Positions 3,484-64,000 of a DNA stretch of 64,000 bases are shown in pieces. Position 1 is the stretch's first letter. Each line of letters opens with the position of its first letter. This DNA comes from a virus: positions 124,001-188,000 of the IMG/VR virus record IMGVR_UViG_3300044638_006750; one strand, given 5' to 3'. The notes beneath the pieces are model-generated. The model was not told the DNA's origin. It did not search any database and was given only the letters and a program-made list of their open reading frames with translations. A program made the translations under genes and the position numbers.

Positions 3484-3993
3484 ATGTCAACTCCGACACC
3501 TACTGCAACCCCTACTGGCTCGCCTCCTCCTACAGCAACTCCAACGAGAACAGCAACCAGAACGCCAAATAATACTCGTACTGGTACTGCTACTGCTACT
3601 TCTACGCCAACACGAACACCAACTAATACCAATACTTCTACTCCTACCCCTACTCCTACGTCTACTCAGACACCAACACCAACAACAACTCAAACTAGTA
3701 CTCCGACCAGAACTCAAACCAGAACACCTACAAAAACACCCACAGCGACCCCTACTAATACTTCTACTACGACTAAAACACCAACCAATACAAAAACCCC
3801 AACCGCTACAAAAACTTCAACTCCAACAAACACTGCTACCCCATCAAACACGCCAACTAATAGTAAAACTCCAACACAAACATCTACTAGTAATAAAGTT
3901 TATATATGTACTACTAGAACTAATACTCCAACAGGTACTCCAACTCCATCACCCACTAATACAAATACTCCATCGGTTACATCTACCAAGCCA
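3484..3993 (+). repeat. Thr/Pro-rich repeat block 1
   Basis: Encodes residues 1-170 as degenerate T-P-T-x units with interspersed Asn, Arg, Lys and Ser. The nucleotide repeat is imperfect because synonymous codons alternate. Confidence 0.8.
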
Positions 3994-5571
3994 CTTAATT
4001 CTAATGAATATTACCTTAGTGATGATCTAAGAAAAATATCTCATGAAAAAGAAACACTACCGACTATTACTGTTTATGTCGATAAAGTTATAGTTGAATG
4101 TTTATGTCTAGACAATCCATTACAAAAAAAGAAATTAGTAAAAGGAGCTTCATTATTTAAGGATGAAATCACTTCTGTTATTTGGTTGATTAGAGAATTT
4201 CAGAATATCCTTGGAACAACTGCAACAGTTTTCTTCTTAAGGGCATTGGATGAAGAAGCAGGAAAAACTGAAATCTATAAGATTGGTGACTCATATGTGC
4301 CAGGACCTATTACTCCTACACCCAAACCAACAGAACCATACGTTTTCATTATTTCAGAAACCCCGACGCCAACACCGAATATTAGTTCTAGTACTATAGT
4401 TTCCGAAGTGATTAGAATATGTCCTACAAATACTCCTACACCATCTATCACTCCTACACAAACACCAACTAATAGTCCAACACCAAGCGCTACTACTACG
4501 AAGACACCCACAAACACCCCAACCAATACAACGTCTAATACTCCAAGCCCTGGCCCCTTACCCATTAAATATTTTATTGGTCCAAGATTAGCTGAAGGCG
4601 AAACATCTCTACAATTCAAAGGTAAATTTGCGTATATGCCATCTGAAGAAGATAGCGGACTGGTTCAGTGGGTCGGTGATACTTTGGAAGGCACAGGTAA
4701 GCTATTAGCTTTAGACCTAAATGGCAATGTAACAACGGTAGAACTATCTAAAAAATATGGTGTTCTCAATGACAGAATTAATCTTCAACCCCCGGCACCT
4801 GATGTAGTAAGAGAAGAGATATTTGTTGAATTAAGATGGCCAGTTAAATGTCAACCAGTAGGTCAGCTTAAAATTCCTTTCAAGGTTGAAAGATATGTTC
4901 CTCCTCCTACACCTTCCCAATCAGTGAGTAGTAGTCCAACTAATACTCCAACACCAAGCATTACAAAAACATCAACACCATCTAACACCCCGTCGAATAC
5001 TGTTACAAAAAGCAATACTCCGACCAATAGTCCGAGTCTGTCTGCTTCTTGTTCATCTAAGCCTACATCAACACCAACACCAAGTGTTTCTATAACGCCC
5101 ACACAAACTTGTAGTAATACTCCCACACCAACACCTACAGAATCTAAATATTCTAATTGTGTTTTAGTTCCAGCGCCCTATCCTGACCCTATAGAATATG
5201 ATGAAGAAACACAAGAATTAATTATTTTAGGAGATGTTAGTTTTACTACTCCAACACCATCTCCGACAGTCACGGGGTCTGTAACACCAACTCCATCGGT
5301 TACTGTGTCTGCAACGCCGACCAATACTCCTACTCCATCAGTTACTAGAACATCTACTCCTTCAGTGACCCCGACCAGAACTCCAACCAATACTCCAACA
5401 AACACTCGGACACCAACTCCTACTAACACTAGTACCCCATCTAATACTTTGACCGTAACACCGACACAGACACCAACCGCCACAGTCACCTATACCAGAA
5501 CTCCGTCACAGACACCAACCAAAACACCGACAGGTACTCCAACAAGCACATATACTCCCACCAGACCATGA
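3484..5571 (+). CDS. mucin-like Thr/Pro-repeat protein with interspersed globular segments
   Basis: A 695-residue protein built from four Thr/Pro/Ser-rich low-complexity blocks (residues about 1-170, 276-358, 472-553 and 587-695) that separate two globular segments (171-275 and 359-471) and a short acidic linker (554-586). The repeat unit is loosely TPTxTPTNT. Codons for Thr and Pro vary freely between units, so the repeat is kept at protein level. Such extended Thr/Pro stalks in other proteins are rigid spacers and common O-glycosylation acceptors; no catalytic motif is visible. It follows the large structural-type gene by 5 bases, with AGGA in the end of that gene as ribosome binding site. 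A surface or tail-stalk role is inferred. Confidence 0.7.
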   Translation: MSTPTPTATPTGSPPPTATPTRTATRTPNNTRTGTATATSTPTRTPTNTNTSTPTPTPTSTQTPTPTTTQTSTPTRTQTRTPTKTPTATPTNTSTTTKTPTNTKTPTATKTSTPTNTATPSNTPTNSKTPTQTSTSNKVYICTTRTNTPTGTPTPSPTNTNTPSVTSTKPLNSNEYYLSDDLRKISHEKETLPTITVYVDKVIVECLCLDNPLQKKKLVKGASLFKDEITSVIWLIREFQNILGTTATVFFLRALDEEAGKTEIYKIGDSYVPGPITPTPKPTEPYVFIISETPTPTPNISSSTIVSEVIRICPTNTPTPSITPTQTPTNSPTPSATTTKTPTNTPTNTTSNTPSPGPLPIKYFIGPRLAEGETSLQFKGKFAYMPSEEDSGLVQWVGDTLEGTGKLLALDLNGNVTTVELSKKYGVLNDRINLQPPAPDVVREEIFVELRWPVKCQPVGQLKIPFKVERYVPPPTPSQSVSSSPTNTPTPSITKTSTPSNTPSNTVTKSNTPTNSPSLSASCSSKPTSTPTPSVSITPTQTCSNTPTPTPTESKYSNCVLVPAPYPDPIEYDEETQELIILGDVSFTTPTPSPTVTGSVTPTPSVTVSATPTNTPTPSVTRTSTPSVTPTRTPTNTPTNTRTPTPTNTSTPSNTLTVTPTQTPTATVTYTRTPSQTPTKTPTGTPTSTYTPTRP
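4309..4557 (+). repeat. Thr/Pro-rich repeat block 2
   Basis: Encodes residues 276-358. It is split by a short non-repeat piece containing Ile, Val and one Cys, then resumes as TPTNTPTxS units. Confidence 0.75.
4897..5142 (+). repeat. Thr/Pro-rich repeat block 3
   Basis: Encodes residues 472-553. It is more Ser-rich than the other blocks and contains two Cys residues (in SASCSS and QTCSNT). Confidence 0.75.
5242..5571 (+). repeat. Thr/Pro-rich repeat block 4
   Basis: Encodes the C-terminal residues 587-695 and runs to the stop codon, so the protein ends in the repeat rather than in a folded domain. Confidence 0.8.
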
Positions 5572-8971: not shown

Positions 8972-8973
8972 TG

Positions 8974-16189: not shown

Positions 16190-16190
16190 C

Positions 16191-16895: not shown

Positions 16896-17073
16896 TAATT
16901 ACCACTGCTGTTCCTGGGGCAAAAAAAGTTTTGTTAGCCGCATTGGACACGTCCTCTGCATTAATAGATTTGCAACAGCTAACCTTAATCGTATCAATTT
17001 TTCTATACTGAGTGTCAGAACCATGAACTTTAAATTCTTGTCCAACATTTAGCTCAGAAAATAGTTTATTCAT
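16888..17073 (-). CDS. hypothetical small protein between the polymerase halves
   Basis: A 61-residue protein (MNKLFSELNVGQEFKV onward) of beta-rich look, with a GTAVVING end. I choose the ATG at 17073, preceded by a strong GGAGGT at 5 bases; an ATG 12 bases upstream has none. Its ribosome binding site and start lie within the last codons of the polymerase N-terminal half, so the two are coupled. The same small fold is often seen in phages as an unknown protein; function unknown. Confidence 0.6.
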   Translation of the reverse strand: MNKLFSELNVGQEFKVHGSDTQYRKIDTIKVSCCKSINAEDVSNAANKTFFAPGTAVVING

Positions 17074-46345: not shown

Positions 46346-46348
46346 GTT

Positions 46349-47601: not shown

Positions 47602-47603
47602 AA

Positions 47604-49077: not shown

Positions 49078-49721
49078 TGAATTAAATTTAAAATTTCTTT
49101 ATATTTGTTTGTTTTTAAAGTATTACAACTTGATGATGAGAAGTGTATTAATTTCCCTATTTTTGGATAATTAGCTACAAGATTTAAACTTTTATAATCT
49201 GTTTTACGGTTAGATAACATAATCATATCTGATGTATGTTCTTTATTATTTATAAGATGAATGTCTATTGGTTTTAGAACCATAAATGATTTCAACATAT
49301 TAAAATAATCTTCAGATCTACCAGACACTACACAAGGGACATGTCCCTGATAAATAGTTAATTCTGTGAAATCAAAAAAATTTATATCTTCTTGAAATGT
49401 ATTATTTATTACATCATAATCAATCATTACTCCTCCTCCTATGTTAGCCATTGCTAACCATCTCATATAACAATGATAGTCGTAGGACGAAGGATTGATG
49501 CTTGGGAATGTTTTTATTATTGTTGAATACTCATTATATAAAGGATGAGACAAAGCGTCTTTTTCGGATATTATCTTCAGTTCCCATCCATGATTTAGCC
49601 AAGATTTTGCACATAGCTCTATTAAAGACTCTTGAGAATATTCTTTTGCAGGCCGATGTTCGATCTCGGGTACAACTTCATAATATGTATAGATAATATT
49701 ATTTTTTGTGCAGTATTGCAT
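49074..49721 (-). CDS. GT32/DXD-type glycosyltransferase
   Basis: A 215-residue protein. The middle has YMRWLAMANIGGGVMIDYDV: the R-W/Y-x2-L-x3-GG-x3-D-x-D signature of GT32 (Och1-like) transferases. The C-terminus is short. It would add a sugar from a nucleotide donor using a metal held by D-Y-D. It overlaps the following gene by 23 bases. Confidence 0.75.
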   Translation of the reverse strand: MQYCTKNNIIYTYYEVVPEIEHRPAKEYSQESLIELCAKSWLNHGWELKIISEKDALSHPLYNEYSTIIKTFPSINPSSYDYHCYMRWLAMANIGGGVMIDYDVINNTFQEDINFFDFTELTIYQGHVPCVVSGRSEDYFNMLKSFMVLKPIDIHLINNKEHTSDMIMLSNRKTDYKSLNLVANYPKIGKLIHFSSSSCNTLKTNKYKEILNLIQ

Positions 49722-50949
49722 AGTTATATTTTTCTTTTAGTTCTGTGATCGGCATATTTCTATTCTCTTCACTATTTAAACTTAAATTAACAATCAATGT
49801 TGTATACACATATTGTTTTTTTATATAGTTCCATAATATTTTATTGTGTTTAGATGATTCTCTATCAAAATGATAATGCATTACTAATTTAAGCAAATAG
49901 TCGTATGGCATGTCTGGACTATGATATTTAATATACTCTGGCATTACAGACTTACAAAACTGCATATATTCCTGAAATAAAGGATTTCCAGTAGCATATA
50001 TAGAAGTTCCTCCATTAATATGGCTATTTAATAAGGACGAATATGATTCATTACTAACGCCATCATACTGAGAACCAGAAATTAAAAAAGGTTGGGATGA
50101 ACAGTATTTAACCAGTCTATCTAACCACTTATCAGATAGATAACAGTCGCACTCCAACAATAAGCTAGAGTTGTATTTTCTTAACAAATCCATAACTGCA
50201 AAGAAAACATAGTTTGGACCCGATTTATATCCGTATAGAGGGATTACATTTTCATCACAATCAGAATTTTTTCCCCAATAAATATCTAAGTCTTGAGGGA
50301 TATCTAAATAAATAATCTCTAAATGTTTAAATTTGTTTTTTAAATTATTGATACCATTATTGTTTTCATAAAATTGTTGATCATATTTTTTATTAGCTAT
50401 AATTATTAAATCTATATTTTTTGACAAATCGGCATTGGTGTTTTTATCTATCTGGTCTAAGAAATTAAGATATGAGTTATCGGTAATTTCTTGTTCACCT
50501 GTTGCCAGTAAACAAATACATTCTAGGTTATTTTCATAGTGTTTAATGCTATCAAGCGAACAATACTGAGAGATATCTTTAAATAATCTAGTATCTTCTT
50601 TATTGACTTCAAAATATGACAATATATGATCATTTGTAATTAAAGTTTTATCTATTTCATTAAAATCTTTTTTTAAGTTATTAATAATTTGTTTAATATT
50701 ATGATATTTTTTTTCATATAATTGAATTAGAGTATAATAATACCATTCTGAAAATTCAATATTCTTGCTTTCCAACACTAAATTAATTTTTTCATCAATA
50801 TTATCTATCAGTTCTGAGAGTTTGTAGTATGGCCAAGACTGATTGGGGTTTAAATTAATAGCTTTATATAATAGTTCTTTAGCTATTTCTGGTTGATTAT
50901 TTTTAATACACAGCATTGCAGCTTTAGCGTATTCTTCCCAATTATTCAT
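49699..50949 (-). CDS. TPR-containing GT-A-like glycosyltransferase
   Basis: A 416-residue protein. The N-terminal 40 residues (EEYAKAAMLCIKNNQPEIAK then LLYKAINLNPNQSWPYYKL) form a TPR helix pair; the remainder holds a GT-A-type core with SSLLLECDCYLSDKWL, whose D-x-D-like E-C-D-C may bind metal. TPR modules could recruit an acceptor protein, as in O-GlcNAc transferases. Acceptor unknown. Confidence 0.55.
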   Translation of the reverse strand: MNNWEEYAKAAMLCIKNNQPEIAKELLYKAINLNPNQSWPYYKLSELIDNIDEKINLVLESKNIEFSEWYYYTLIQLYEKKYHNIKQIINNLKKDFNEIDKTLITNDHILSYFEVNKEDTRLFKDISQYCSLDSIKHYENNLECICLLATGEQEITDNSYLNFLDQIDKNTNADLSKNIDLIIIANKKYDQQFYENNNGINNLKNKFKHLEIIYLDIPQDLDIYWGKNSDCDENVIPLYGYKSGPNYVFFAVMDLLRKYNSSLLLECDCYLSDKWLDRLVKYCSSQPFLISGSQYDGVSNESYSSLLNSHINGGTSIYATGNPLFQEYMQFCKSVMPEYIKYHSPDMPYDYLLKLVMHYHFDRESSKHNKILWNYIKKQYVYTTLIVNLSLNSEENRNMPITELKEKYNYAILHKK

Positions 50950-53104
50950 TATATCTTTCTATATTAGAGATGCCTAAATTTTTGATAATATCTAAGAATT
51001 TTTTTTGATTAATAGCTTGAAATTTTTTAGTGCCTTTTAAAATATCTGTTCCGCTAGAGGAACCCTCGTCGTGAATAGCCTCGCATCTTGGATCATATAT
51101 GGTTTTTAATCCATAAAAATGAGCCCTGTACTGCCATTCACTATCTTCATAATACATAGAATCTAATTCATGGCTAAAAACACCTATTTTATTAATTGCT
51201 CCTCTTTTCATATATAATAAACATCCTGAGCAATATCCAGTATATTTAGGAATATTATATTTATAAGTTTTAGGATGGTCATATCTACCTTTATTCAAAC
51301 CAGTACCATCACTGTATAACTCTGCTCCAGCTTCAGCTAGTCTTCCGTCAGGATATATTGTTTTACCTCCAGCCGCCGCTATATAATCTGCTATATATGC
51401 GCTAGAATATAAATAATTTAACCAATATTTATCTATAATTTCAATATCATCATTAATTAATAATATATCTGACTCTTTGTATCTTGGATCAAGCATAATC
51501 TTATTATTTGGAATAATAAAATATTCATTTTGATTGTTTTTTATATATTCAATAGTATTAGGATATATTTGAACATATTTTTTTAATAGTCTCTCGGTTT
51601 CTTTATTTGTTCCATTATCTGTAACTACAATTTTATAATTTAAATAAGATGTTTTTTGTAAAATAGAATCTATACATTTACGTAATTTTTTGGGTTGATT
51701 ATATGTAACTATACTAATTGTAACTTGTTTATCTTGTAGCGTGTGTTTGAGAACATTGATAGCAGACTCTTTGGATACTATTTTATCTAGATGTTCTTTC
51801 CCGGCCTCACCCAGCTGTATTTTTTGTTTATTTTTAAGACTAAAATAGTACTGTAGACCATCTATAAATTCAAAATTAGATTCTGCTATAATAGCATGGT
51901 TTTTATGTATAAAATTAATACCTTCGTTTCCTATACTGGAAGTTATAATAGGAATGCCACTCATACCAGCATCACATATTTTCCCTTTTATGCCTGCTCC
52001 CCAATTTAGAGGAGCAATTAATATACTTGTTTTTTTATATACATCAGAAATTTTTTCTATACAACCCAAGTATTCTATAGAAGGATCAGAAGAGATATTA
52101 TCTTGTATTGTTTTATCTAAATTTGGACCAATAAGTAATAGTTTTGGTTTTATTTTAAGATTATTGTATATATTAGTTAGTTGAAAACTTTTAAAAATTT
52201 CTATAGATCTAATAGCACCATCTAGATTGGGACCATGGGCGTAATTTCCTATAAAAACTATATTATTCCCTAGTTTACAAGTATGTTTGTGATGAATATT
52301 GCTTAATATTTTAATGTTATGATTATATCCTATTTCATCTTGTATATATTCTTTATCTTTTTCTGTAACGGCAAAAATTACATTAGCAGATAAATATACT
52401 TGTTTTTCTATTTTTTTACGAACATCAAGAATGGATTGTTGTATATTTAAGTGTCCAGAGTCCTTTCCTCGCTGTTCTCTAATCCAGTGTACATCAACAG
52501 TATCTATAATAATTTTAATATTTGGATAATATTTTTTTACGATGTCAAGATATTGATTAGCTATATCATACCAAGAAAAAATTACATTGTCAAAAACAAT
52601 ATTTGATTTTTTAGCTTTTTTTAAATATGTGTCTAAGTATATTTGTTTGTCTATGTCTGGCAAAAAATATGGTATTTTTATAGCGTCTAGAGCATCTAGA
52701 TATTTTTTTTTAGAGGATCCATTACAAAGAAACCAGACATTATATTGCAGATCTATTTTTAATATTTTAAGTATCTCTAATAATCTATTGCCTCCGCTGC
52801 TGGTGTCGTAGTCTGGCGCCATTGGCGAAAAATATAATAGATTTTTACCATTATTCCAAATTTCTGGCACCAGTTCATGTGATGAAACGGTCTCTGAAAA
52901 CGATGGAACAATTTTTTTGTAAGCTCTATTCTCTTTACGTCCATATAAAATATAATGTTCTTTAGCCTTTTGTTCATCGTCTATACCGGCGACTATGAGG
53001 TCAGGATGTAACAGCGTATAAATAATAGGATCAAAATCTTTAGGTAGCAAAAATCCATATTGCTCAACAACTCTTTTGGTATATGTATTTGAAACCCATC
53101 TCAT
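50942..53104 (-). CDS. fused GT4 + GT2 glycosyltransferase
   Basis: A 720-residue two-domain protein. The first 65 residues hold an FDPIIYTLLHPDL and HYILYGRKENRAY element seen in phage and bacterial surface-glycan enzymes. Residues about 85-455 form a GT-B domain (IVFIGNYAHGPN, LIAPLNWGAGIKGKICDAGM), and about 460-720 a GT-A domain (TISIVTYNQPKKLRKCIDSI, ILLINDDIEI with the N-D-D metal motif, and H-D-E near the end). Two activities in one chain suggest a disaccharide unit is built in one place. Confidence 0.85.
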   Translation of the reverse strand: MRWVSNTYTKRVVEQYGFLLPKDFDPIIYTLLHPDLIVAGIDDEQKAKEHYILYGRKENRAYKKIVPSFSETVSSHELVPEIWNNGKNLLYFSPMAPDYDTSSGGNRLLEILKILKIDLQYNVWFLCNGSSKKKYLDALDAIKIPYFLPDIDKQIYLDTYLKKAKKSNIVFDNVIFSWYDIANQYLDIVKKYYPNIKIIIDTVDVHWIREQRGKDSGHLNIQQSILDVRKKIEKQVYLSANVIFAVTEKDKEYIQDEIGYNHNIKILSNIHHKHTCKLGNNIVFIGNYAHGPNLDGAIRSIEIFKSFQLTNIYNNLKIKPKLLLIGPNLDKTIQDNISSDPSIEYLGCIEKISDVYKKTSILIAPLNWGAGIKGKICDAGMSGIPIITSSIGNEGINFIHKNHAIIAESNFEFIDGLQYYFSLKNKQKIQLGEAGKEHLDKIVSKESAINVLKHTLQDKQVTISIVTYNQPKKLRKCIDSILQKTSYLNYKIVVTDNGTNKETERLLKKYVQIYPNTIEYIKNNQNEYFIIPNNKIMLDPRYKESDILLINDDIEIIDKYWLNYLYSSAYIADYIAAAGGKTIYPDGRLAEAGAELYSDGTGLNKGRYDHPKTYKYNIPKYTGYCSGCLLYMKRGAINKIGVFSHELDSMYYEDSEWQYRAHFYGLKTIYDPRCEAIHDEGSSSGTDILKGTKKFQAINQKKFLDIIKNLGISNIERYNE

Positions 53105-53784
53105 ATGATTAAATCAGTATTGTAAAAATTTTGCAATAATTGAATTTCGTATTTAATTTTATTACATATTATGTTTTTTACTTTGTCTCCTATTATAGAA
53201 TCAGAATCAACAGGAGACCTATTCATATGGTGATTAGTAATATGTAGTTGAAACGGATTTGAGTCATTAAAAATTTCACAAAGTTTTTGATTTTCTACCT
53301 GAAAAATAAAGTTATATTTTTTAAGTTCTTCTATAGCAATCTCATATTTTTCTTTTAAAGATTTTTCTTTATATTTCACATTAGTTAAATATTCTATAGT
53401 CATATTGCCAAATCTGTCTAAGTAATTATTAAGCAAATTTTCTGAAAGGTTGTCTATGTGTTGACCATAAAAATAATGAATGTGGCTTATCACTCGTTTA
53501 ACAGGATCTCTGATAGTCAGTATTCTGTATGTGTCTTCTATAGAAAGCTTAAAAATATCTTCTATATAATAGCTGGGACTATGGTCTATGAACATCAGAG
53601 TATCAGAGTGAATTGTGTCTATTAAATGAGGTTGTTCATATAAACACATATTTCCATGAGTAAATTGCGAGATATATGCTGGGGCTTGTTGAAAATGTTC
53701 GTTGTTCTTATAGCCTTCATAAAATCCTCTTTTAAGACTGGACCCTCCACATCTGGGAATATGATTTAAAACTAAGTATTTCAT
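53101..53784 (-). CDS. sulfotransferase-family protein
   Basis: A 227-residue protein with the PAPS-binding P-loop (LVLNHIPRCGGSSLKRGFY) at the N-terminus and the 3'-phosphate loop RILTIRDPVKRVISHIHYFY at about residues 87-107, as in carbohydrate 2-O-sulfotransferases. It would move sulfate from PAPS to a sugar hydroxyl. A phage-coded carbohydrate sulfotransferase implies a sulfated glycan. It overlaps the fused enzyme gene by 4 bases. Confidence 0.8.
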   Translation of the reverse strand: MKYLVLNHIPRCGGSSLKRGFYEGYKNNEHFQQAPAYISQFTHGNMCLYEQPHLIDTIHSDTLMFIDHSPSYYIEDIFKLSIEDTYRILTIRDPVKRVISHIHYFYGQHIDNLSENLLNNYLDRFGNMTIEYLTNVKYKEKSLKEKYEIAIEELKKYNFIFQVENQKLCEIFNDSNPFQLHITNHHMNRSPVDSDSIIGDKVKNIICNKIKYEIQLLQNFYNTDLII

Positions 53785-53788
53785 ATGT

Positions 53789-54541
53789 TTAGTTACAAAT
53801 TAGATTATTAATTAATAGTTTAGATAAAGGAACATCTTTATTGCAGACATACGAGTCTGAGCAATGATGTATGACACAATTGGGATCAATTAGCGAAAAA
53901 CTATAGTGTAATAAATTCCTAGAATAATATCCTTGAGGAATATTATAGTAAAGCAATCCTTCAGCCGATGATTCTAATATACCCTCATGTTTGCCTGTTC
54001 CAGCATATTCTTTTGAAGCTGGACATGAAAGATATTCTTTCATCATTATTTTATCCATAATATACATTGCTTGATGATTTTCTGGTAAATTAATATAATT
54101 TGATTTGTATTTTTTAATATCTCTAATGGAGTAAGTCCTGGTTATATCTGTTAAATACCATCTGTTTTGCAAATGCTCTACCCTGATGAATCCGGGAAAA
54201 AATCTTTTATCATCTATTTCTTGTCTATGATATAACCAATAATCTATATTATTCTGATCGATAACTACATCGTCTTCTGTATATATAAAATGTGTGTATG
54301 ATGAGTCATCATAATATTTTTGCATTACTGGAATATGTTTCCACGGTAAATGGAACGGGTGTTCTAGCTCTCCAACATAATAATATTCGGTATTTGGATT
54401 ATTGCATATAACAGTTATATCTATATTATATGACGTATTTTGTAATTTATTTATCACACGTTCTAAAAATTTTTTTCTTTCTTCTCTGTAATAGAAAGTT
54501 ATTACACAGGCTATTTTATCCGCCATACCAGTATCTTCCAT
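53789..54541 (-). CDS. GT-A-type glycosyltransferase
   Basis: A 250-residue protein. IACVITFYYREERKKFLERV opens the fold, and THFIYTEDDVVIDQNNIDYW carries the D-D metal motif, followed by TGKHEGILESSAEG, an acidic catalytic-side loop. The start ATG overlaps the upstream gene by 26 bases; a second ATG 15 bases in is also possible. Acceptor unknown. Confidence 0.65.
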   Translation of the reverse strand: MEDTGMADKIACVITFYYREERKKFLERVINKLQNTSYNIDITVICNNPNTEYYYVGELEHPFHLPWKHIPVMQKYYDDSSYTHFIYTEDDVVIDQNNIDYWLYHRQEIDDKRFFPGFIRVEHLQNRWYLTDITRTYSIRDIKKYKSNYINLPENHQAMYIMDKIMMKEYLSCPASKEYAGTGKHEGILESSAEGLLYYNIPQGYYSRNLLHYSFSLIDPNCVIHHCSDSYVCNKDVPLSKLLINNLICN

Positions 54542-55403
54542 TCTCTATTTTATTAGCATTATTTGGAATCAAATGTTCTGGAATTTCTGTAATCCAATAA
54601 TCTTTTGGCTTTCCACCAGAATCAATACCAAATAGTTTTTGTATACCAGAACCCATATGTATAGCATCTATATTAAAAGAATGAATATAGTCTGTTAGAA
54701 TACACCCCATTGGACCACATCCCACAAAAGCTATATCAAAACTACCTAGCAATGAATCAATTTGCTCTTTCATTATCTTTATATCTGTTAAATAATTGTC
54801 GTGTGATCCATTATTAAAAAATGTAAAAGGAGTTTTTATTCCAATCATATTTTTTATAGTACTCATTGATGGATATATTTTTTTTAAATTACCAGAAAAA
54901 TATTGATCTAGCATCAAATCAGAAAAACCATTAATAATTAATACTCTTTTATTATCTAATAATGGTAATATGGGGGTATAAATACACCAATAGTCTTTGT
55001 ATTGATCTAGTTCTGATTTATAAATATTGATTAAATTGGTTGAGCAGACCACTTCGTTCTCGATTGCAAAATTTGTTAGTATGGTTTTATATGGTTCTTT
55101 TAGTAAAAATCCATGAATAAATATATGCCAGTATGTAGCTTTATGTATTGATTGTTGACACATATTCAAAAATTGATTATACACATCACTATTTTTTACT
55201 GATTCAGTATCTATATCAAAATATGTTCCACCAATAGTTTTATCATAAAATCCTGTAGAACTGTATAACCAATTAATAAATTGATTTTCTAAATCAGTAA
55301 TCATTATTTTATCTATTGAATTATCATATTTTTTAGACTTTAAGAGATGTCTACAAAACATAACGGTTGTTTCTGTGTTTCCGGGTCTGGTGAGTTTTAA
55401 CAT
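54516..55403 (-). CDS. GT-D-like (DUF1792-type) putative glycosyltransferase
   Basis: A 295-residue protein. SFDIAFVGCGPMGCILTDYI and IHMGSGIQKLFGID near the C-terminus are the glycine-rich strand and loop typical of the GT-D fold enzymes acting on bacterial serine-rich surface proteins. The N-terminal region (MLKLTRPGNTETTVMF) fits too. Those enzymes build glycans on repeat proteins, which makes the Thr/Pro-rich protein a possible target. Assignment is by fold pattern. Confidence 0.6.
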   Translation of the reverse strand: MLKLTRPGNTETTVMFCRHLLKSKKYDNSIDKIMITDLENQFINWLYSSTGFYDKTIGGTYFDIDTESVKNSDVYNQFLNMCQQSIHKATYWHIFIHGFLLKEPYKTILTNFAIENEVVCSTNLINIYKSELDQYKDYWCIYTPILPLLDNKRVLIINGFSDLMLDQYFSGNLKKIYPSMSTIKNMIGIKTPFTFFNNGSHDNYLTDIKIMKEQIDSLLGSFDIAFVGCGPMGCILTDYIHSFNIDAIHMGSGIQKLFGIDSGGKPKDYWITEIPEHLIPNNANKIENGRYWYGG

Positions 55404-55405
55404 AA

Positions 55406-56188
55406 TTATTTACAGTTTAATTGATATAATGATATATTGATATCTAAAATATTTGTACGCAGTGGAACCTCATGAATTTCTGCATCATGATGGTTGTGAT
55501 ATATAGTAAAAGCATCTGGATGATTAATGCCAGATTTATAAAAACGATCAATAATTGGATAATAACTATAGTATCCGTTTGGTTTAACTGCCTCAGCAAA
55601 TTTACGATCCCCTACTACTTCTCCTCTGAGATATCCAAATTTTTCCCATATATGTCGAGGAACGGCGAACTCTGTACAATTAAGCCAATGTACCTTTTGT
55701 ATTAAATGCCAATCTTCTATATTCTTTTCAATATTTCTACATGTAGACAAAGCTGATCCGCCATAAGCTTTTTGATCATCTTTTATAAAAGATTCATATA
55801 GTGTTTCATAAAATAATAGATAGTCTTTAGCTAATACCGCATCATCTTCAGTAAAAATTACATAGTCGCTATGCTGGAAACACTCATCAATTAAGATTTT
55901 TGCTCCTTTATATGGTCCAACATTATTATTAGATAATTTAATTATTATATTTTTATATAAGTATTTTTTCTGTTCTTTATAGCTATAAATATAGTTAATC
56001 ACATGTTTATTTGCAGCATACCAATGACTCCTATTGTTATAGGACATATTATGAGTATTGTCAATAAAAAAAACAAGAGTATATTTTTCTTTTCCTATAC
56101 ACTTTTCTAAAGACGCGAGCAAATCTTGAAGTGTGTCTATTTTTACAAAACACTGTATTCCTATTACGTAATTATTTTGTTGTTGCAT
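55406..56188 (-). CDS. GT-A-type glycosyltransferase
   Basis: A 260-residue protein: VIGIQCFVKIDTLQDLLASL as first strand-helix, NNVGPYKGAKILIDECFQHS, and YVIFTEDDAVLAKDYLLFYE with an E-D-D metal motif, similar to the GNT-I group. A conserved W and D later suggest a functional enzyme. It overlaps the dehydratase gene by 17 bases. Confidence 0.7.
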   Translation of the reverse strand: MQQQNNYVIGIQCFVKIDTLQDLLASLEKCIGKEKYTLVFFIDNTHNMSYNNRSHWYAANKHVINYIYSYKEQKKYLYKNIIIKLSNNNVGPYKGAKILIDECFQHSDYVIFTEDDAVLAKDYLLFYETLYESFIKDDQKAYGGSALSTCRNIEKNIEDWHLIQKVHWLNCTEFAVPRHIWEKFGYLRGEVVGDRKFAEAVKPNGYYSYYPIIDRFYKSGINHPDAFTIYHNHHDAEIHEVPLRTNILDINISLYQLNCK

Positions 56189-57173
56189 AGTGGTCTAGTG
56201 TCCACGCTATAGTTTTTTTCATAGATGTATCAAAATCTACTTTTGGCTTCCAGCCCATATTAGCTAGTTTTGTTCCGTCTAGAGCATATCTACGGTCATG
56301 TCCTGGCCTGGTTTTATGAAAGTCTACATATTCTAATATTGGTGTCTTGTTCATTATATTGCCAATATATTTAACTATTTCATCATTTTTAAATTTGGTA
56401 TCACCCACTACATTATAATGTTCACCAGATATACCGTGTTCAAGTAAAAATAAAGTAGCATTTGCAGCGTTTCTAGCATGGAGCCAGTGTCTTTCTCCAA
56501 CATATTCAATTTTTCCATCATCATCTATTTTGGAATGTATTGGTATGGGTAGGTCATGAACAATATGATGTATAGCTTTCGCTATTAATTTTTCTTTATT
56601 TTGTCTTTCACCAAACATATTCATCGTATATGTTGTAATAATTGGAAGACCATATGTGACATGGTAACTGATTCCAGCAGCGCCTTGTCCGCACTTACTT
56701 CCACTATATGGATTAGACGGCCTCCATCTATCGTCCTCTTTGTAATCATAATCGTTTGGTGCGGGCCCAAAAACCTCATCTGTTAAATAATTGATAAATA
56801 CTGCGTCAGGATTAGTTTTTCTATACCATTCCAGTAAATTAACTGTGCCAATTACATTATCCTCAAAAAATTGTTTTGGATGAGTAATACTTCTGTCTAC
56901 ATGACTATTAGCAGCAAGATGAATAATATAGTCTACTTTTCCTATGCTTTCTGAAAGATGATCTGAAATATCATATTTTAAATCATGATACAAAAATTTA
57001 ATTCTATTTTGAGAATTCTGTATATGTTTACTCATCACAAGTCTATTCATATCTCCTATGTTAGAAAGTCTACATAAGGCGATAATATCCCAATTAGTAT
57101 CGACCAGAACCTCTTCTATCATATGAGAACCAAAAAATCCTGCCGCGCCAGTAATAAGAACAGTTTTTTTCAT
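56172..57173 (-). CDS. NAD-dependent nucleotide-sugar 4,6-dehydratase-like enzyme
   Basis: A 333-residue short-chain dehydrogenase-type enzyme. VLITGAAGFFGSHMIEEVL binds NAD, INYLTDEVFG supplies the T-D-E of dTDP-glucose 4,6-dehydratases, and PYSGSKCGQG the catalytic Y-x3-K. It converts a nucleotide sugar to its 4-keto-6-deoxy form as a glycan precursor. No partner epimerase or reductase of the rhamnose pathway is seen in the window. Confidence 0.85.
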   Translation of the reverse strand: MKKTVLITGAAGFFGSHMIEEVLVDTNWDIIALCRLSNIGDMNRLVMSKHIQNSQNRIKFLYHDLKYDISDHLSESIGKVDYIIHLAANSHVDRSITHPKQFFEDNVIGTVNLLEWYRKTNPDAVFINYLTDEVFGPAPNDYDYKEDDRWRPSNPYSGSKCGQGAAGISYHVTYGLPIITTYTMNMFGERQNKEKLIAKAIHHIVHDLPIPIHSKIDDDGKIEYVGERHWLHARNAANATLFLLEHGISGEHYNVVGDTKFKNDEIVKYIGNIMNKTPILEYVDFHKTRPGHDRRYALDGTKLANMGWKPKVDFDTSMKKTIAWTLDHYATTK

Positions 57174-57194
57174 AGTATTAACACCATTAAATTT

Positions 57195-57893
57195 TTAGTT
57201 GGTTGGTACGCAATATGTAAATTGTTGATTTTGATTAATATGACAAAATTCTATATCATGTTTGATAACTTTAATATTATTTTGTCGAAGCCATGTCAAG
57301 AGTCTGGTTTCTGAATTACCCGGTATAGCATTACATATATTATAGAAGTCACAATAAATTTGCATAGCTTTTGGTCTACCTATAGCCAATCTATCACAAA
57401 TGCCATCAAAATCGAATTTTTGTGGTACTATAATAGTATGATTATCCAAACCGTTTAAATTTATGTTTAATATTGGCTTATAGAAAAACAGATCTGGTCG
57501 TATTCTGATTATATAGTCAAAGGTATCAGATATTTCTGATATTAAATTATAGGCTCCTTTTACAAAATACCACTGCAACATAAAATGTTTAAATTTATCT
57601 TCATGAACAGTATTATTATTCATTTGACTATGAAATTGTGACCAACCACCTATACCATTAGGTATGCAGAACGCATGAAGGTCTTCTACTGGATCTTTTT
57701 TCCATATTTTTTTTTCTATAATTTTTTGATATTCATTAATAACAGTTTCAATATTATAATTTCCCTCTAGTATATTAAAAACATAATTAATGTCATAGTC
57801 TTGAAAAATATCTTCAAAATATTTTTGTATAGTTGGATAACTATAGACAAAACCTCTTAATTGTCCAGAAAATAAAAATGCTACTTTACTCAT
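57195..57893 (-). CDS. putative glycosyltransferase of the RxRPDL type
   Basis: A 232-residue protein. FLFSGQLRGFVYSYPTIQKY, IIRIRPDLFF, CDRLAIG and SETRLLTWL form the conserved positions of a sugar-transferase-like group found in viruses and capsule loci. R-P-D could bind metal and sugar nucleotide. It overlaps the neighbour by 8 bases. Confidence 0.6.
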   Translation of the reverse strand: MSKVAFLFSGQLRGFVYSYPTIQKYFEDIFQDYDINYVFNILEGNYNIETVINEYQKIIEKKIWKKDPVEDLHAFCIPNGIGGWSQFHSQMNNNTVHEDKFKHFMLQWYFVKGAYNLISEISDTFDYIIRIRPDLFFYKPILNINLNGLDNHTIIVPQKFDFDGICDRLAIGRPKAMQIYCDFYNICNAIPGNSETRLLTWLRQNNIKVIKHDIEFCHINQNQQFTYCVPTN

Positions 57894-58809
57894 ATAATGA
57901 TTGATATATTTCTATAAATTCTTTAGATCTCGTTGGTAATACGTCTTCATTATTTATTAATTTTAACGTATTTCTATATCCAACAATTTCATTTTCTAAA
58001 TTTTTAATTAAGTCCTGAGGATTTCTATCTTGATAAACAGATGCCTTATTATATATAAGAGAATTTGGAAAAACTCTTTGTATAGTATAGGATGGCCATA
58101 TGTCATCCATTCTCCCAACATGAGGAAGAACATAATAGTGTTTCATTACAGATTTATGTAAAAATGTATTTTGGCTATTAAATGGAGATATGTTAGTGCT
58201 ACAATATGGTCTGGTAATATCAAATTTAACTAGTGGTTTATATGATAGTCTACACATAGCATCTATATCTGGATCCCCATCCCACAAATCAGCTTGAATC
58301 AATGGTTTAAGATGTGTTTTCCCTCTATATATAAAAGAATTTTTTTTCCATAAAAGCTCTATAGGAAATCCTCTGTGCCATAAATGAGGGTAGTTTGTTA
58401 CGGAAAGAGGATCGAATACGCCGCTGTCATTTTCATACAGATCACACTCTATAGTTTTATCTATATGTATGTCCGATGACCATGAATCATATGGTATATT
58501 ATCATCATCTACCGTAGCTATAATAGTATTATTAGTTTTTGATGCATATATAAATCCTATATTTCTTCTTTGAATAGAATTCCATCCTATATTATCTGAT
58601 AATTCTTTAAGAGAATATTCTTGTTCATCTGGATGTATATACTGAACAGCTTTTCCGTGTTCTTTAGCTAATTTTTGATATAGTTCATGTGGAGTTTTTT
58701 TATCTCCAACTATAAAAAATATATATTCTTTTTCTTGAGCAATTTTACAAAACTTTATAGTCGCCTCTGTTGGGCTATTGATTGTTGTGGTAACTATACT
58801 AATACTCAT
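57886..58809 (-). CDS. GT-A glycosyltransferase, STELLO/DUF288-like
   Basis: A 307-residue protein beginning MSISIVTTTINSPTEATIKF. ATVDDDNIPYDSW carries the D-D-D metal motif, and DLWDGDPDIDAMCRLSYKP is a second strongly conserved acidic loop, as in DUF288/STELLO and GT75 proteins. I start at 58809, where ATGA overlaps the epimerase stop. It probably transfers or interconverts a sugar; acceptor unknown. Confidence 0.65.
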   Translation of the reverse strand: MSISIVTTTINSPTEATIKFCKIAQEKEYIFFIVGDKKTPHELYQKLAKEHGKAVQYIHPDEQEYSLKELSDNIGWNSIQRRNIGFIYASKTNNTIIATVDDDNIPYDSWSSDIHIDKTIECDLYENDSGVFDPLSVTNYPHLWHRGFPIELLWKKNSFIYRGKTHLKPLIQADLWDGDPDIDAMCRLSYKPLVKFDITRPYCSTNISPFNSQNTFLHKSVMKHYYVLPHVGRMDDIWPSYTIQRVFPNSLIYNKASVYQDRNPQDLIKNLENEIVGYRNTLKLINNEDVLPTRSKEFIEIYQSLYE

Positions 58810-59777
58810 TTTTGATAAACGCTTTCTAGCCATTTATATAGCTTAATAGTACCATCCTTAAGTGGGTAGTTTGGCTGCCATCCTAGTTTTTGTTTAATAA
58901 GAGTATTATCAGAATTTCTACCCTTGACACCCTCTGGACCAGGAATATTTTTAATAGTTAAATTTTTACCAGATATATCAATAATCATTTGAGTAAAATT
59001 ATTAATGCTAATCATTTCATCAGAACCTATATTCACAGGACCAGAAAAATTAGATCTGTTTAATCTAATAATGCCTTCCACACATTCGTCTACGTATAAA
59101 AATGACCTAGTTTGATTGCCACTACCCCAAATTTCAATAGTGGAATTATTGGGGGCTTCTAAAACTTTTCTGCATAGTGCTGCTGGAGATTTTTCCCTGC
59201 CCCCTTTGTATGTGCATTCTATACCAAAAATATTATGAAATCTAGCAACATGAATATTTAAACCAAAATTACGTTGGTATGCAAGATAAAGTCTTTCACT
59301 AAATAATTTCTCCCAGCCATACTCACTATCTGGTTCAGCAGGGTATGCTGAAGCTTCGTTGCATTTAGGATTGTCTGGATCTGTTTGATTATATGCTGGA
59401 TATGCACAAGCGCTGCTACTATAGAATAAAGATCCGACGCCATATTTATGAGCATACTTTGCAACCAACAGGTTTATAGATGCGGAGTTAGTCATAACAT
59501 TAGCGTCATTTTCTCCTGTAAAAATATATCCCGCGCCTCCCATATCAGCAGCTAATTGATATATTTCATCGAATGGTTTATTGTTGGAATCTAATAAAAC
59601 AGCTGATACAGTATCCTCGTCTGTAAGATCCCCTATAATAAATTCATCTGCTGGACTAATAGAATAAGCAGGATGGTGAAGATCGACACTACGAACCCAT
59701 AGTCCTTCAAGCTTTAGTCTTTTGACTAAATGAGATCCTATAAATCCTCCGCCTCCTAATACTAATGCAGTTTTCAT
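58806..59777 (-). CDS. GDP-mannose 3,5-epimerase-like enzyme
   Basis: A 323-residue enzyme strongly resembling plant GDP-mannose 3,5-epimerase: ALVLGGGGFIGSHLVKRLK binds NAD, QLAADMGGAGYI, SSACAYP (catalytic Cys), EYGWEK (Tyr and Lys), FHNIFGIECTYKGGREKSPA, WGSGNQTRSFLYVDECVEG and PGPEGVKGRNSDN are nearly the same as in the family. It makes GDP-L-galactose or GDP-L-gulose from GDP-mannose. A phage-coded copy points to L-galactose-type sugars in its glycan. Confidence 0.88.
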   Translation of the reverse strand: MKTALVLGGGGFIGSHLVKRLKLEGLWVRSVDLHHPAYSISPADEFIIGDLTDEDTVSAVLLDSNNKPFDEIYQLAADMGGAGYIFTGENDANVMTNSASINLLVAKYAHKYGVGSLFYSSSACAYPAYNQTDPDNPKCNEASAYPAEPDSEYGWEKLFSERLYLAYQRNFGLNIHVARFHNIFGIECTYKGGREKSPAALCRKVLEAPNNSTIEIWGSGNQTRSFLYVDECVEGIIRLNRSNFSGPVNIGSDEMISINNFTQMIIDISGKNLTIKNIPGPEGVKGRNSDNTLIKQKLGWQPNYPLKDGTIKLYKWLESVYQK

Positions 59778-59786
59778 TATTTTTAT

Positions 59787-60344
59787 TTACTCCTTAATTA
59801 TGTACCAGCTGTGATCTAAAAAGGTTTTAAGCGAAGTATTTTTATTTAAAATAAACTCATCTATAGCTTGTTTGGTTCCTGGATGATCTATACTGTAATC
59901 ATGTCCAGCTAAAATACCACCACTTATTAGTTTTGGATACCAAACAGAAATGTCTGTTTTCACATTATCATAGTCATGATTACCATCTATATAAACCATA
60001 TCTATAGATTCATTTGCAAATCTAGAACAGGCTTTTGTTGATATGGTTTTTAACTTTTTACATCTGTTGTTTTTAATAAAATCTTCCAATCTAGCATCAA
60101 AAATTTTTTCATAGATCGGATTTTGGTTCCATGGATCGACACAATGTATAGAATGAATATTTTCAAAGCCAAGAAAAATAGTTGTGGATTCACCAAGGTG
60201 AGAACCTATTTCAACCAAATTATTAATATTGGGTTTATCTTTTAGTATACTATTTATCATACTAATTAGTCCAACAACTTGGCTAGACTCAGCATCTGAC
60301 CACCAAGGGAAAAATCGTACAGACATAATATAATTAGTGTCCAT
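59787..60344 (-). CDS. class I SAM-dependent methyltransferase
   Basis: A 185-residue protein of the methyltransferase 24 kind: LVEIGSHLGESTTIFLGF as SAM loop, IHCVDPW as motif II Asp, DMVYIDGNHDYDNVKTDI and LAGHDYSIDHPGTKQAIDEF later. It likely O-methylates a sugar in the module; small-molecule or glycan targets are typical for this family. The upstream gene ends 3 bases before its start. Confidence 0.8.
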   Translation of the reverse strand: MDTNYIMSVRFFPWWSDAESSQVVGLISMINSILKDKPNINNLVEIGSHLGESTTIFLGFENIHSIHCVDPWNQNPIYEKIFDARLEDFIKNNRCKKLKTISTKACSRFANESIDMVYIDGNHDYDNVKTDISVWYPKLISGGILAGHDYSIDHPGTKQAIDEFILNKNTSLKTFLDHSWYIIKE

Positions 60345-61232: not shown

Positions 61233-62891
61233 ATGCATAATACAACTCTCGTTACGGGTATATGGGATCTTGGTAGGTCTGGACTAGAAGAGGGGTGGTC
61301 AAGGAAATTTGATCATTACGTAGACCACTTCAAGAGGCTGCTAGAAGCAACAAAAGACACGAATATGTGTGTTTTTATAGATCCTGAGCACGAAAAGATA
61401 GTATGGGATGTACGAGATAAAAGCAACACAGCAGTCATTAATCAATCTGCAAAATCATTTAACAGTAGTTTTTTTCCATTTTTTGATAAAGTACAATCTA
61501 TAAGAACCAATCCAGACTGGTATAATCAGGTTGGATGGCTTAAAGAAAGCACACAAGCTAAAATGGAATGGTATAATCCGATGGTTATGAGCAAAATGTT
61601 CATGCTGCATAACGCTAAATGCTATAACATATTCAATACAGACTATTATTTTTGGATAGATGGAGGTATAACTAATACTATACATCCTGGATATTTTTAT
61701 CATGACAAAGTAATAGAAAAAATAGAACAATTAGTTAATAAATTCTTGTTCGTATGTTTTCCATATGAAACAAATAGCGAAATACATGGTTTTAAGATAG
61801 ATGCCATGAAAAAATTCGCACAATCAGAAATTGTCAATAGGGTTGCAAGAGGAGGATTTTTTGGTGGACATAAAGAATTTATATCATATGCAAATGATAT
61901 GTATTATGGTCTTCTAAGAGACTCATTGAACGAAGGGTTGATGGGAACCGAAGAAAGTATTTTTACATTAATGACTTATCTTGATCCTGAAGTTTTTCAG
62001 GTAGAAATGATTAATGATAATGGTTTGCTTGGTACATTTTTTGAAAATGTGAAGGACAATAAAACAGAATTAGCTAAAAGTATTAGTCCTAAAAAAGTAT
62101 CTCATAAAAATAATGATATTATAGTATATATTAATGCTTTCAATTCTCCAGAGCAACTACAAATGGTTTGCGATTCTTTTGAAAAGAACGATAAAGCCTT
62201 TTTAACAGACACTAAAATTTATCTTATTAATAATACCACAAAAGAAGAACTATTTCCTATATACGATAAAATATCAGAAAAATATGGTTTTACAGAAATA
62301 AGGAAAGGCAATATTGGGGTTTGTGGAGGTAGGCAACTAGCCGCCGAACACTTCGCTGAGTTGGGTGCAAAATATATGTTATTTTTTGAAGATGATATGT
62401 TGGTTGATAGTGGAGAAAATAGATATTGTAAATTTGGTTTTAGAAAAAATATTAGCAATTTATTAAAAAACTCTATCTCTATTATGGATATAGAGAACTA
62501 TGATTTTTTGAAGTTAACATTTAGTGAGTTTTATGGTAATAATTCAGAACAATGGGCGTGGCATAATGTGCCAGGAGAGAGGAAAATAGAATACTTTGGA
62601 AATATAAAAAAAAGACCACAAACAAAGTTTTCTTCTATAAAAACATTTAACGGTATTCCATATGCAGAGGGAGAGATTTACTATTCCAACTGGCCTCATA
62701 TTATATCTCAGGACGGAAACAAGAAAATGTTTCTAGACACTACATGGGCGCATCCTTTTGAACAGACATGGATGAGCCATATTTATACATTAACAAGAGA
62801 AAACCAAGTTAAGCCTGCAATTCTTTTAGCTAGTCCAATAACACATAATAGGGTGCATTTCTATGAAGCGTCAGAGAGGAAAGAAAACTGA
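61233..62891 (+). CDS. HtrL/YibB-type glycosyltransferase fused to a GT2 domain
   Basis: A 552-residue protein. The N-terminal part (TLVTGIWDLGRSGLEEGWSR and NIFNTDYYFWIDGGITNTIH with the W-I-D-G-G loop) matches the WlaTC/HtrL sugar-transferase group. The C-terminal part (IVYINAFNSPEQLQMVCDSF, NIGVCGGRQLAAEHF and MLFFEDDMLVDSG) is a GT2 domain with an E-D-D metal motif. It is divergent from the main sugar operon and starts 199 bases from it. Confidence 0.8.
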   Translation: MHNTTLVTGIWDLGRSGLEEGWSRKFDHYVDHFKRLLEATKDTNMCVFIDPEHEKIVWDVRDKSNTAVINQSAKSFNSSFFPFFDKVQSIRTNPDWYNQVGWLKESTQAKMEWYNPMVMSKMFMLHNAKCYNIFNTDYYFWIDGGITNTIHPGYFYHDKVIEKIEQLVNKFLFVCFPYETNSEIHGFKIDAMKKFAQSEIVNRVARGGFFGGHKEFISYANDMYYGLLRDSLNEGLMGTEESIFTLMTYLDPEVFQVEMINDNGLLGTFFENVKDNKTELAKSISPKKVSHKNNDIIVYINAFNSPEQLQMVCDSFEKNDKAFLTDTKIYLINNTTKEELFPIYDKISEKYGFTEIRKGNIGVCGGRQLAAEHFAELGAKYMLFFEDDMLVDSGENRYCKFGFRKNISNLLKNSISIMDIENYDFLKLTFSEFYGNNSEQWAWHNVPGERKIEYFGNIKKRPQTKFSSIKTFNGIPYAEGEIYYSNWPHIISQDGNKKMFLDTTWAHPFEQTWMSHIYTLTRENQVKPAILLASPITHNRVHFYEASERKEN

Positions 62892-64000
62892 TAATTTGAT
62901 TTTTGTACAGATAGCGTCATATCGTGATCCAGAGCTATTGAATACTCTAAGAGATATGATTAATAATGCTGTACATCCAGAAAATCTTAGAATCGGTATC
63001 GCTTGGCAGCATAGCGATGCAGACAGTTGGGATAAACTTGATGAATTTAAAGATGATTCTAGGTTTAGAATTCTAGACATCAATTACAAAGACTCTAAGG
63101 GTGTTTGTTGGGCGAGAAATGCCGTTCAACAACTATATGATGGAGAAAAGTACACCCTACAACTAGATTCACACCATAGATTTGCAAAAGACTGGGATAA
63201 AACTTTAATAGATATGCTAGTAGGACTACAAAAGGAAGGCTATGCAAAGCCCCTTATTACTGCATATATACCTAGTTTTGATCCAGAACATGATCCGGAA
63301 AAAAGGGTTCAAGAACCATGGAAAATGAATTTCGATAGATTCATACCCGAGGGCGCAATATTCTTTTTGCCAGCATCTCTTGAATCTTTCAACGATAAGG
63401 ATAGACCTATTAAGGGAAGATTCTATTCTGCTCATTTTGCTTTTACTGTTGGAGAATTTTGTAAAGAAGTTCCACATGATCCTAATTACTACTTTCATGG
63501 AGAAGAAATTAGCATAGCAGTTAGAGCATATACTCATGGTTATGATATATTTCATCCTCATAAAGTTGTTTGCTGGCACGAATATACTAGAAAAGGCAGA
63601 TCAAAACAATGGGACGATGATCCTGTTTGGCCTCAAAGAAATAATGATTCTCATATGAGAAACAGAAAGTTGTTCGAAATGGACGGATTAACAAATGATA
63701 TTGATTTTGGTCCATGGGGTTTTGGTAAAAAGCGTACAGTAGCAGATTATGAGAAATATGCAGGTATATCGTTTAAGAAAAGAGCTGTACAAAGATACAC
63801 ATTAGACCATAAAGAGCCGCCAAATCCAACTTATGCCACAGAAGAAGAATATCAAAAATCATTTCTGAATATCTTCAAGCACTGTATTGATATTGGCTAT
63901 TCTCAAGTACCCGAAACAGATTATGATTTCTGGTGTGTTGCATTTAAAGATGAAAATGGTCAGGATCTTTATAGACAAGATGCTGATGAAGCAGAAATTG
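62863..64000 (+). CDS. GT60-like GlcNAc transferase, cut by the window edge
   Basis: An open frame from ATG at 62863 to the window end (at least 379 codons, no stop). It overlaps the previous gene by 29 bases. Residues about 13-31 read IFVQIASYRDPELLNTLRDM, then KGVCWARNAVQQLYDGEKYT, LQLDSHHRFAKDWD with the D-x-H metal site, RFYSAHFAFTVGEF and YFHGEEISIAVRAYTHGYD with HPHKVVCWHEYTR. These are the hallmarks of GT60, best known from the enzyme adding GlcNAc to hydroxyproline of Skp1 in Dictyostelium. Bacterial relatives modify surface molecules. Family call is firm; acceptor is inferred. Confidence 0.82.
   Translation, partial: MKRQRGKKTDNLIFVQIASYRDPELLNTLRDMINNAVHPENLRIGIAWQHSDADSWDKLDEFKDDSRFRILDINYKDSKGVCWARNAVQQLYDGEKYTLQLDSHHRFAKDWDKTLIDMLVGLQKEGYAKPLITAYIPSFDPEHDPEKRVQEPWKMNFDRFIPEGAIFFLPASLESFNDKDRPIKGRFYSAHFAFTVGEFCKEVPHDPNYYFHGEEISIAVRAYTHGYDIFHPHKVVCWHEYTRKGRSKQWDDDPVWPQRNNDSHMRNRKLFEMDGLTNDIDFGPWGFGKKRTVADYEKYAGISFKKRAVQRYTLDHKEPPNPTYATEEEYQKSFLNIFKHCIDIGYSQVPETDYDFWCVAFKDENGQDLYRQDADEAEI

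Follow-up and report, generated by a model that had tools for sequence, protein, structure and literature searches.

A putative mucin-type O-glycosylation system acting on the virion proteins of a jumbo phage

Few cases of virion glycosylation are known in phages. Mucin-type O-glycosylation is started by polypeptide N-acetylgalactosamine (GalNAc)-transferases, the animal and Toxoplasma enzymes of family GT27. Enzymes of family GT60 also start mucin-type glycosylation on serine or threonine, including in Trypanosoma cruzi; they put N-acetylglucosamine (GlcNAc) onto threonine of protist mucins, and a related Skp1 enzyme acts on hydroxyproline (PMC8724618). Topic searches found no paper joining phage virions and mucin-type glycosylation, which is weak evidence since subscription papers lay mostly outside their coverage, and the papers found do not describe a dedicated starter enzyme that, together with an exchangeable glycan cassette, serves mucin-like acceptors. 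Here we analyse a stretch of 64,000 bases (called the window throughout; bases 124001-188000 of the 232,683-base IMG/VR virus record IMGVR_UViG_3300044638_006750, with genome coordinates counted on the whole record) that encodes a GT60-like enzyme, a partner protein, a threonine/proline-rich (T/P-rich) protein and a variable set of sugar genes. Our reading, to which we assign a probability of roughly 0.7, is that the phage carries a mucin-type O-glycosylation system acting on its own virion proteins. It builds on what the analysis shows, namely the parts themselves, the predicted fold of the enzyme, the conservation of the enzyme pair, its linkage to T/P genes and the joint absence of both in a relative. 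The argument turns on three genes, given here in window coordinates:

3484..5571 (genome 127484), + strand: T/P-rich mucin-like protein of 695 amino acids, candidate acceptor; an open frame in which folded segments separate the T/P stretches
61233..62891, + strand: conserved partner with an HtrL_YibB domain (PF09612, E-value 9e-12) and a second, GT-A-like domain; overlaps the GT60 gene
62863..64000 (genome 186863-188140), + strand: candidate GT60-like polypeptide GlcNAc-transferase of 425 amino acids; the gene extends beyond the end of the window

A preliminary description of this DNA had called the protein at 62863 GT60-like, and it is indeed a full member of PF11397 (E 6e-75; 253 bits against a cut-off of 21), with a match over most of the domain. 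Relatives occur at 64 viral-contig loci, most of them 50-92% identical and one 27%. D102-S103-H104 is invariant among 42 GT60-like sequences, and we take this D-S-H to be the counterpart of the DXH metal motif of GT27 polypeptide GalNAc-transferases. Searches of the PDB by sequence, with phmmer and with profiles, gave no meaningful match, and fold comparison alone worked: the AlphaFold model (predicted local distance difference score, pLDDT, 92.1; predicted template-modelling score, pTM, 0.89) has a predicted GT-A fold related to polypeptide N-acetylhexosamine-transferases, and polypeptide GalNAc-transferases fill the first 24 places among its PDB matches (best E 8e-10, 10-15% identity). The partner (model pLDDT 88, pTM 0.59) is present at 50 of the 64 GT60 loci, and its fold search led to the two-domain transferases LH3, LARGE1, ColGalT1 and chondroitin polymerase, none of which was singled out. 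Some lineages have GT60-like genes as a tandem pair, the second of which is diverged (L056:11250-12515, L063:8292-9551).

With respect to the acceptor residue, the preliminary description had argued from two transferases of families that modify repeat proteins or hydroxyproline. The GT60 membership stands, the GT-D-like call at 54516 is not supported at a usable E-value, and hydroxyproline is less likely than threonine. Threonine is the more likely acceptor because GT60 enzymes start mucin-type glycosylation on this residue. A prolyl-4-hydroxylase gene, for which a search had been suggested, did not turn up: the 232,683-base record holds no prolyl-hydroxylase-type domain PF13640, other dioxygenase families and the host lying outside this search. 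Hydroxyproline was lowered as a candidate after this result and in view of what is published on GT60 enzymes and threonine.

Long Thr/Pro(/Ser)-rich repeat domains, by which mucin-type acceptors are recognized, are found in the record. The Thr/Pro-rich stalk protein first noticed in the window is well borne out, with 423 of its 695 residues in T/P-rich stretches and its gene near the end of the structural region. It is not alone: TPT-type stretches, about 2,170 residues in total and usually between folded segments, occur in eleven open reading frames (ORFs) of that region (genome starts 55525, 79967, 82375, 88300, 89883, 97736, 101861, 104165, 106897, 110197 and 127484), such that the stalk remains a candidate acceptor as one of about a dozen and not as the sole one. 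The reversed T/P DNA pattern, used as a control, gave almost no matches. The structural region lies on the + strand, is marked by the terminase (genome 47525) and portal (49624) genes and runs to genome 130016. The T/P genes come after terminase, portal and a probable tape-measure gene (4284 amino acids, genome 64020, judged from size and place), and in the cultured Xanthomonas phage XacN1 beside baseplate genes; by this gene position, the T/P proteins may be particle components. In another phage (G028) one protein of 4267 amino acids (G028:C1:53915-66718, L368) is 48% threonine and 21% proline and consists almost wholly of TPTNTPTN-type repeats; G066, too, has a protein exceeding 4,200 residues.

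The enzyme pair is tied to such genes by its neighbourhood. In the nearest relatives, partner and GT60 gene overlap in the same arrangement as in the window, and in other lineages the GT60 gene comes first and the partner last, with one to six genes in between, the cassette lying among tail genes in some of them. At three loci (L049, L050, L052) only 41-43 bp separate the end of a T/P-rich gene from the GT60 gene that follows it, and another T/P-rich gene starts 12-41 bp past the partner, on one strand throughout. Taken over L049-L053, a T/P tail gene stands 41-90 bp upstream of GT60, L051 and L053 showing the upstream half only, and at L054 the T/P gene follows the partner on the opposite strand. 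An independent sample of 120 loci was picked purely by the T/P DNA pattern; 13 of these hold GT60 and/or the partner, which in each case has a T/P gene as its same-strand neighbour 20-210 bp away. The 55 genes found between GT60 and partner in 16 loci are mostly unrelated, and none has homologues in more than three other loci. Judged by gene content, the two enzymes would form a conserved bracket around exchangeable cargo genes.

It had been suggested to check whether both loci co-occur in related genomes, and relatives without the module are also without TPT segments. One relative of 230 kb (G041), whose terminase is 82% identical and which has 141 of 306 genes in common with the window phage, keeps the flanking genes in order yet lacks genome 172244-184344 and 185233-191651, and has zero TPT-type residues. 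Homologues of the T/P-bearing ORFs 55525 and 82375 exist in it without the TPT segment, and none of the 695-residue protein was found there. The relatives G040, G047, G098 and G106 are likewise without GT60, partner and TPT DNA pattern. Among records of at least 100 kb not chosen by T/P content, the pattern is present in 17 of 18 with the partner versus 3 of 15 without it (Fisher p 1e-5, a value that ignores kinship and record incompleteness), and the single partner-bearing record without the pattern is a 136 kb fragment. Where records above 150 kb had been sampled through terminase or ribonucleotide reductase, GT60 agreed with T/P, in presence or in absence, in 11 of 13 (p 0.03, with the same disregard of kinship and incompleteness).

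We also searched for a stalk without the module. The only 234 kb case is almost identical to a phage that has GT60, and most likely stops short of the locus. The exception G086 has T/P but no GT60 in a 150 kb fragment which, by comparison of gene positions, we judge to stop short of the locus, and G066, T/P-rich and without GT60, shares its giant mucin with G028 and in all likelihood breaks off ahead of the locus. Neither was retained as counter-evidence.

Cultured phages come closest to an experiment. Among 50,697 phage records, GT60 and the full-length partner occur in the same three: Xanthomonas phage XacN1 and Stenotrophomonas phages CM1 and RAS14, which make our proposal directly testable. 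In XacN1 a single region encodes a GT60 relative (ORF334, 48% identity), a partner (42%) and a giant protein with TPT segments (ORF325). In XacN1 and RAS14 the giant protein, of 3,100-3,300 amino acids, is encoded near the cassette and has its TPT segments toward the C-terminus (residues 3091-3161 in XacN1, 3097-3124 in RAS14), and in XacN1 its gene sits beside baseplate wedge genes. Proteomics of XacN1 is reported to have found at least two glycoproteins, and phage-encoded transferases including ORF334 were suggested as a possible cause (PMC5852040). This is the closest approach to experimental support. The earlier suggestion that the phage glycosylates its own T/P-rich surface proteins is thus strengthened by the fold, the neighbourhood in several lineages, the joint loss in a relative and the XacN1 glycoproteins.

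We infer the donor sugar, the acceptor residues, the order of steps and the role as follows. In the cytoplasm of the infected cell, the GT60-like enzyme would put the first sugar, probably alpha-GlcNAc, on threonines within TPT repeats, those of tail proteins and of other structural proteins alike. Extending the glycan and decorating it with deoxy- or epimerized sugars, methyl groups and probably sulphate groups would then fall to the two-domain partner, whose gene overlaps that of GT60, and to the variable transferases. The T/P stretches would become stiff, protease-resistant, glycan-coated stalks that are then built into the particle, and the exchangeable middle genes may give each phage a different surface glycan. 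As to what the stalks are good for, stiffening, protection from proteases, decoy or receptor glycans and escape from host surface defences are our guesses.

Several observations weigh against this proposal. About 57 kb separate the GT60 gene of the window phage itself from the nearest T/P gene, and several genes of the phage's sugar module are without profile support. Two genomes (G102 and G017) have a GT60 relative without partner and without TPT, and some GT60-lacking relatives carry other threonine-rich linkers of the PTTTTT type. PF11397 is also present in many bacteria, without an assigned function there, and no biochemistry on phage or bacterial PF11397 enzymes was found in the literature. 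Furthermore, the glycosylated XacN1 proteins are not named in the available text of PMC5852040.

The PTTTTT-type linkers bear on the alternative that survives best, namely that the T/P stretches serve tail proteins as bare flexible linkers, while the sugar genes act elsewhere and the two co-occur since jumbo phages commonly have both. Secreted bacterial proteins often contain T/P linkers, and relatives without GT60 do have threonine-rich linkers. However, the TPT type tracks the enzyme pair and not jumbo genomes in general, and the pair adjoins T/P genes in several lineages, such that we consider bare linkers unlikely, if the best of the alternatives. G041, G040 and G106 use the PTTTTT type, a small part of which is scored as T/P by a looser residue count, and G041 also has collagen-like GVQGTQG repeats. 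The PTTTTT linkers and GVQGTQG repeats of GT60-lacking relatives suggest a different linker solution or another modification.

The sugar genes of the window had been described as one block of roughly 20 kb with about a dozen glycosyltransferases. We judged the calls against curated family cut-offs, with only part of the genome scanned. The genes exist, but they make up a smaller and more mixed block than described: by comparison with a relative, the variable module proper comprises window 48244-60344 on the - strand and the GT60 block from 61233 to genome 191651, which past the window end holds two further unassigned proteins and two methyltransferases. A single module spanning 44-60 kb was rejected, as 44156-46879 (GT4, GMP reductase-like and deoxyribosyltransferase-like genes) consists of backbone genes common to the relative; a macro-domain-like gene at 47604 also belongs to the backbone. 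The GMP reductase-like gene (window 45245-46345) is part of the backbone of the clade, and a similar-looking gene is found close to GT60 in another lineage (L044, L046, L048, L056). The G+C content is 27-30% over 48-58 kb versus 32-35% in the preceding kilobases. The genes of the block read as follows (window coordinates):

44156: GT4 glycosyltransferase, match above curated cut-off; backbone gene
46933..47607, - strand: probable glycosyltransferase between backbone genes (PHROG galactosyl transferase, 3e-6); absent from G041
48244..49077, - strand: weakly WcbI-like protein (PF18588, E 0.0012, 19 bits, cut-off 29.2)
49074..49721, - strand: no usable family; relative 46% identical near GT60 in L020
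49699..50949, - strand: no usable family; weak tetratricopeptide-repeat-like N-terminus
50942..53104, - strand: two-domain glycosyltransferase, GT4 (PF13692, 5e-10) plus GT2 (PF00535, 1.5e-13)
53101..53784, - strand: probable sulfotransferase (PF03567, E 1e-3, just under cut-off)
53789..54541, - strand: no family match
54516..55403, - strand: possible GT-D-like protein (PF22882, E 0.03, 14 bits, cut-off 27; C-terminal 50 residues only)
55406..56188, - strand: possible GT-A glycosyltransferase (PF05060 MGAT2, E 5.5e-4, under cut-off)
56172..57173, - strand: dTDP-glucose 4,6-dehydratase-type nucleotide-sugar enzyme (TIGR01181, 2e-69, below its cut-off; PDB 2hun, E 5e-50)
57195..57893, - strand: DUF7796 protein, possible glycosyltransferase (PF25072, 3.7e-7, above cut-off)
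57886..58833, - strand: no usable family
58806..59777, - strand: GDP-mannose 3,5-epimerase-type enzyme (PDB 2c59, E 2e-85)
59787..60344, - strand: candidate sugar or glycan methyltransferase, Methyltransf_24 (PF13578, 1.3e-18)

Profile support extends to only about half of the transferases claimed. The matches at 50942, 59787, 61233 and 62863 exceed the curated cut-offs, as do those at 44156 and 57195, and the genes at 49074, 49699, 53789 and 57886 have no usable family. The two nucleotide-sugar enzymes (56172 and 58806) and the methyltransferase (59787) were called correctly. The sulfotransferase falls just short of its cut-off, and recognizable sulphate-donor motifs (HIPRCGGSS and RDPVKRVISH) can be read in its sequence; the WcbI-like assignment falls below its cut-off, and the GT-D-like one is at most possible. 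Further sugar genes are found elsewhere in the genome, namely GlmS (42006), a GDP-mannose dehydratase (45799), a GT25, an RgpF-like protein and a small cluster at 207784-212937. Because the GlmS gene was not found in the relatives tested, we dropped it as a shared GlcNAc supplier and regard it as an accessory of the window phage. The dehydratase is also found in GT60-lacking relatives.

The variable, low-GC gene content of this block is like that of polysaccharide loci, and RgpF-, WcbI- and sulfotransferase-like genes are present, which could speak for a module altering a host polysaccharide such as capsule or O-antigen, for example to block superinfection. Against this, the conserved GT60 enzyme resembles protein-acting transferases, the enzyme pair sits among tail genes in other lineages and no flippase or polymerase was recognized among the scanned part of the genome, and we hold a polysaccharide target to be quite improbable. 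It is more improbable still that these genes glycosylate virion proteins with capsid or tail tube, and not the TPT stretches, as main acceptors. Such a situation would recall mycobacteriophages, glycosylated at the C-termini of these subunits (PMC12619734), and the TPT segments of XacN1 are short, yet two glycoproteins are reported for that phage; linkage and joint loss, however, concern the T/P genes. Least likely of all is that the transferases glycosylate the bases of phage DNA, since, even though DNA glycosylation by phage transferases is known and is one role considered for the core transferases in a different lineage of aquatic jumbo phages (PMC12619734), and GMP reductase-like and deoxyribosyltransferase-like genes lie nearby, these nucleotide genes are backbone also present in the module-free G041, the GT60 fold is a polypeptide transferase fold and a dozen variable sugar genes exceed the needs of base modification.

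Relatives of the enzyme in bacteria raise the question of how far mucin-type modification of T/P proteins extends. PF11397-type genes adjoin type VI secretion genes in Burkholderia (L480) and Paraburkholderia (L481); in Azospirillum (L483) one adjoins tail-sheath genes near a gene with a long TPTPTP run, on a Klebsiella plasmid (L485) one lies beside a TPTPTP-bearing gene, and some bacterial loci lie near linker-bearing VgrG proteins. A T/P gene was found within two genes of the PF11397 relative at 6 of 80 bacterial genome loci, and T/P genes made up 7 of 273 near versus 5 of 706 far genes (p 0.04), a weak enrichment that is suggestive only and serves as a lead. It is conceivable that the trait is widespread in contractile tail machines, with many jumbo phages, some of them having mucins of over 4,000 residues, and some bacterial contractile injection systems coating TPT stalks by way of GT60-type starters, and with each phage owing a surface glycan of its own to exchangeable sugar genes. 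We put this forward tentatively, with the odds somewhat against it. If true, it would place a pathway regarded as eukaryotic into phages and bacteria.

The remainder of the record speaks to the phage and its host. Also at the end of the structural region lies:

1..3478 of the window (gene start genome 120678), + strand: C-terminal half of a 2266-amino-acid protein

A second low-GC (27%) block on the - strand (window 8336-12665) holds small unknown genes and an NTP-transferase-like protein (8974), adjoins a GT4 gene (12771) and is partly common to G041. Window 14573-18943, also on the - strand, encodes a DNA polymerase III alpha-type polymerase that is apparently split in two (17066-18943 and 14573-16189), the pieces lying on either side of an exonuclease-like gene. 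The genome further encodes a DUF1501 protein (genome 216029-217276, L010:12529-13776; PF07394, 1.7e-101), with a 74% identical copy in relative G098, and a subtilase (genome 39620-41287, L004:620-2287) with the N-terminus LEQLETRALLS. The host probably is a planctomycete, because DUF1501 proteins and LEQLETRALLS-type subtilases are both typical of Planctomycetota.

If the window phage does glycosylate its own virion proteins in this manner, this would explain the use of many transferases in a large group of uncultivated aquatic jumbo phages and offer a simple bacterial source of tools for mucin-type glycosylation. It would also raise the question of a common origin of the eukaryotic GT60 and GT27 starters and the tail-associated enzymes of phages and bacteria.

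How, then, does this system compare with those already described? The GT27 transferases supply all 24 best structural matches, but at 10-15% identity the phage enzyme is not a member by sequence, and in place of a ricin-type lectin domain, none being recognized, it has a strand-rich C-terminal region (residues ~337-423). The streptococcal Fap1 system is like our proposal in that a gene cassette O-glycosylates long Ser/Thr-rich repeat proteins in the cytoplasm; it uses GT-D enzymes, whereas the window offers only the marginal match at 54516, and no dedicated secretion machinery was recognized in the phage. Mycobacteriophages encode transferases of their own that act on proteins of the virion (Freeman et al. 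2023, cited in PMC12619734), as we propose here, though the acceptors are C-termini of capsid and tail tube subunits, and the available part of PMC12619734 describes neither mucin-like repeats nor a variable cassette. XacN1 combines a GT60 relative, a partner gene and a TPT-bearing giant protein with reported glycoproteins, but its TPT segments are short, and in the accessible portion of PMC5852040 its authors draw no link to mucins. The GT60 alpha-GlcNAc-transferases in CAZy, such as those of Dictyostelium (Skp1 Gnt1) and T. cruzi, belong to the same family PF11397. Unlike these protist enzymes, ours is phage-encoded, has a candidate activity, is linked to tail and variable sugar genes and is accompanied by no prolyl hydroxylase of the PF13640 type. 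Yet the T/P-rich acceptor candidates of the phage resemble protist mucins, and the Skp1 enzyme is known to act in the cytoplasm, just as we propose for its phage counterpart.

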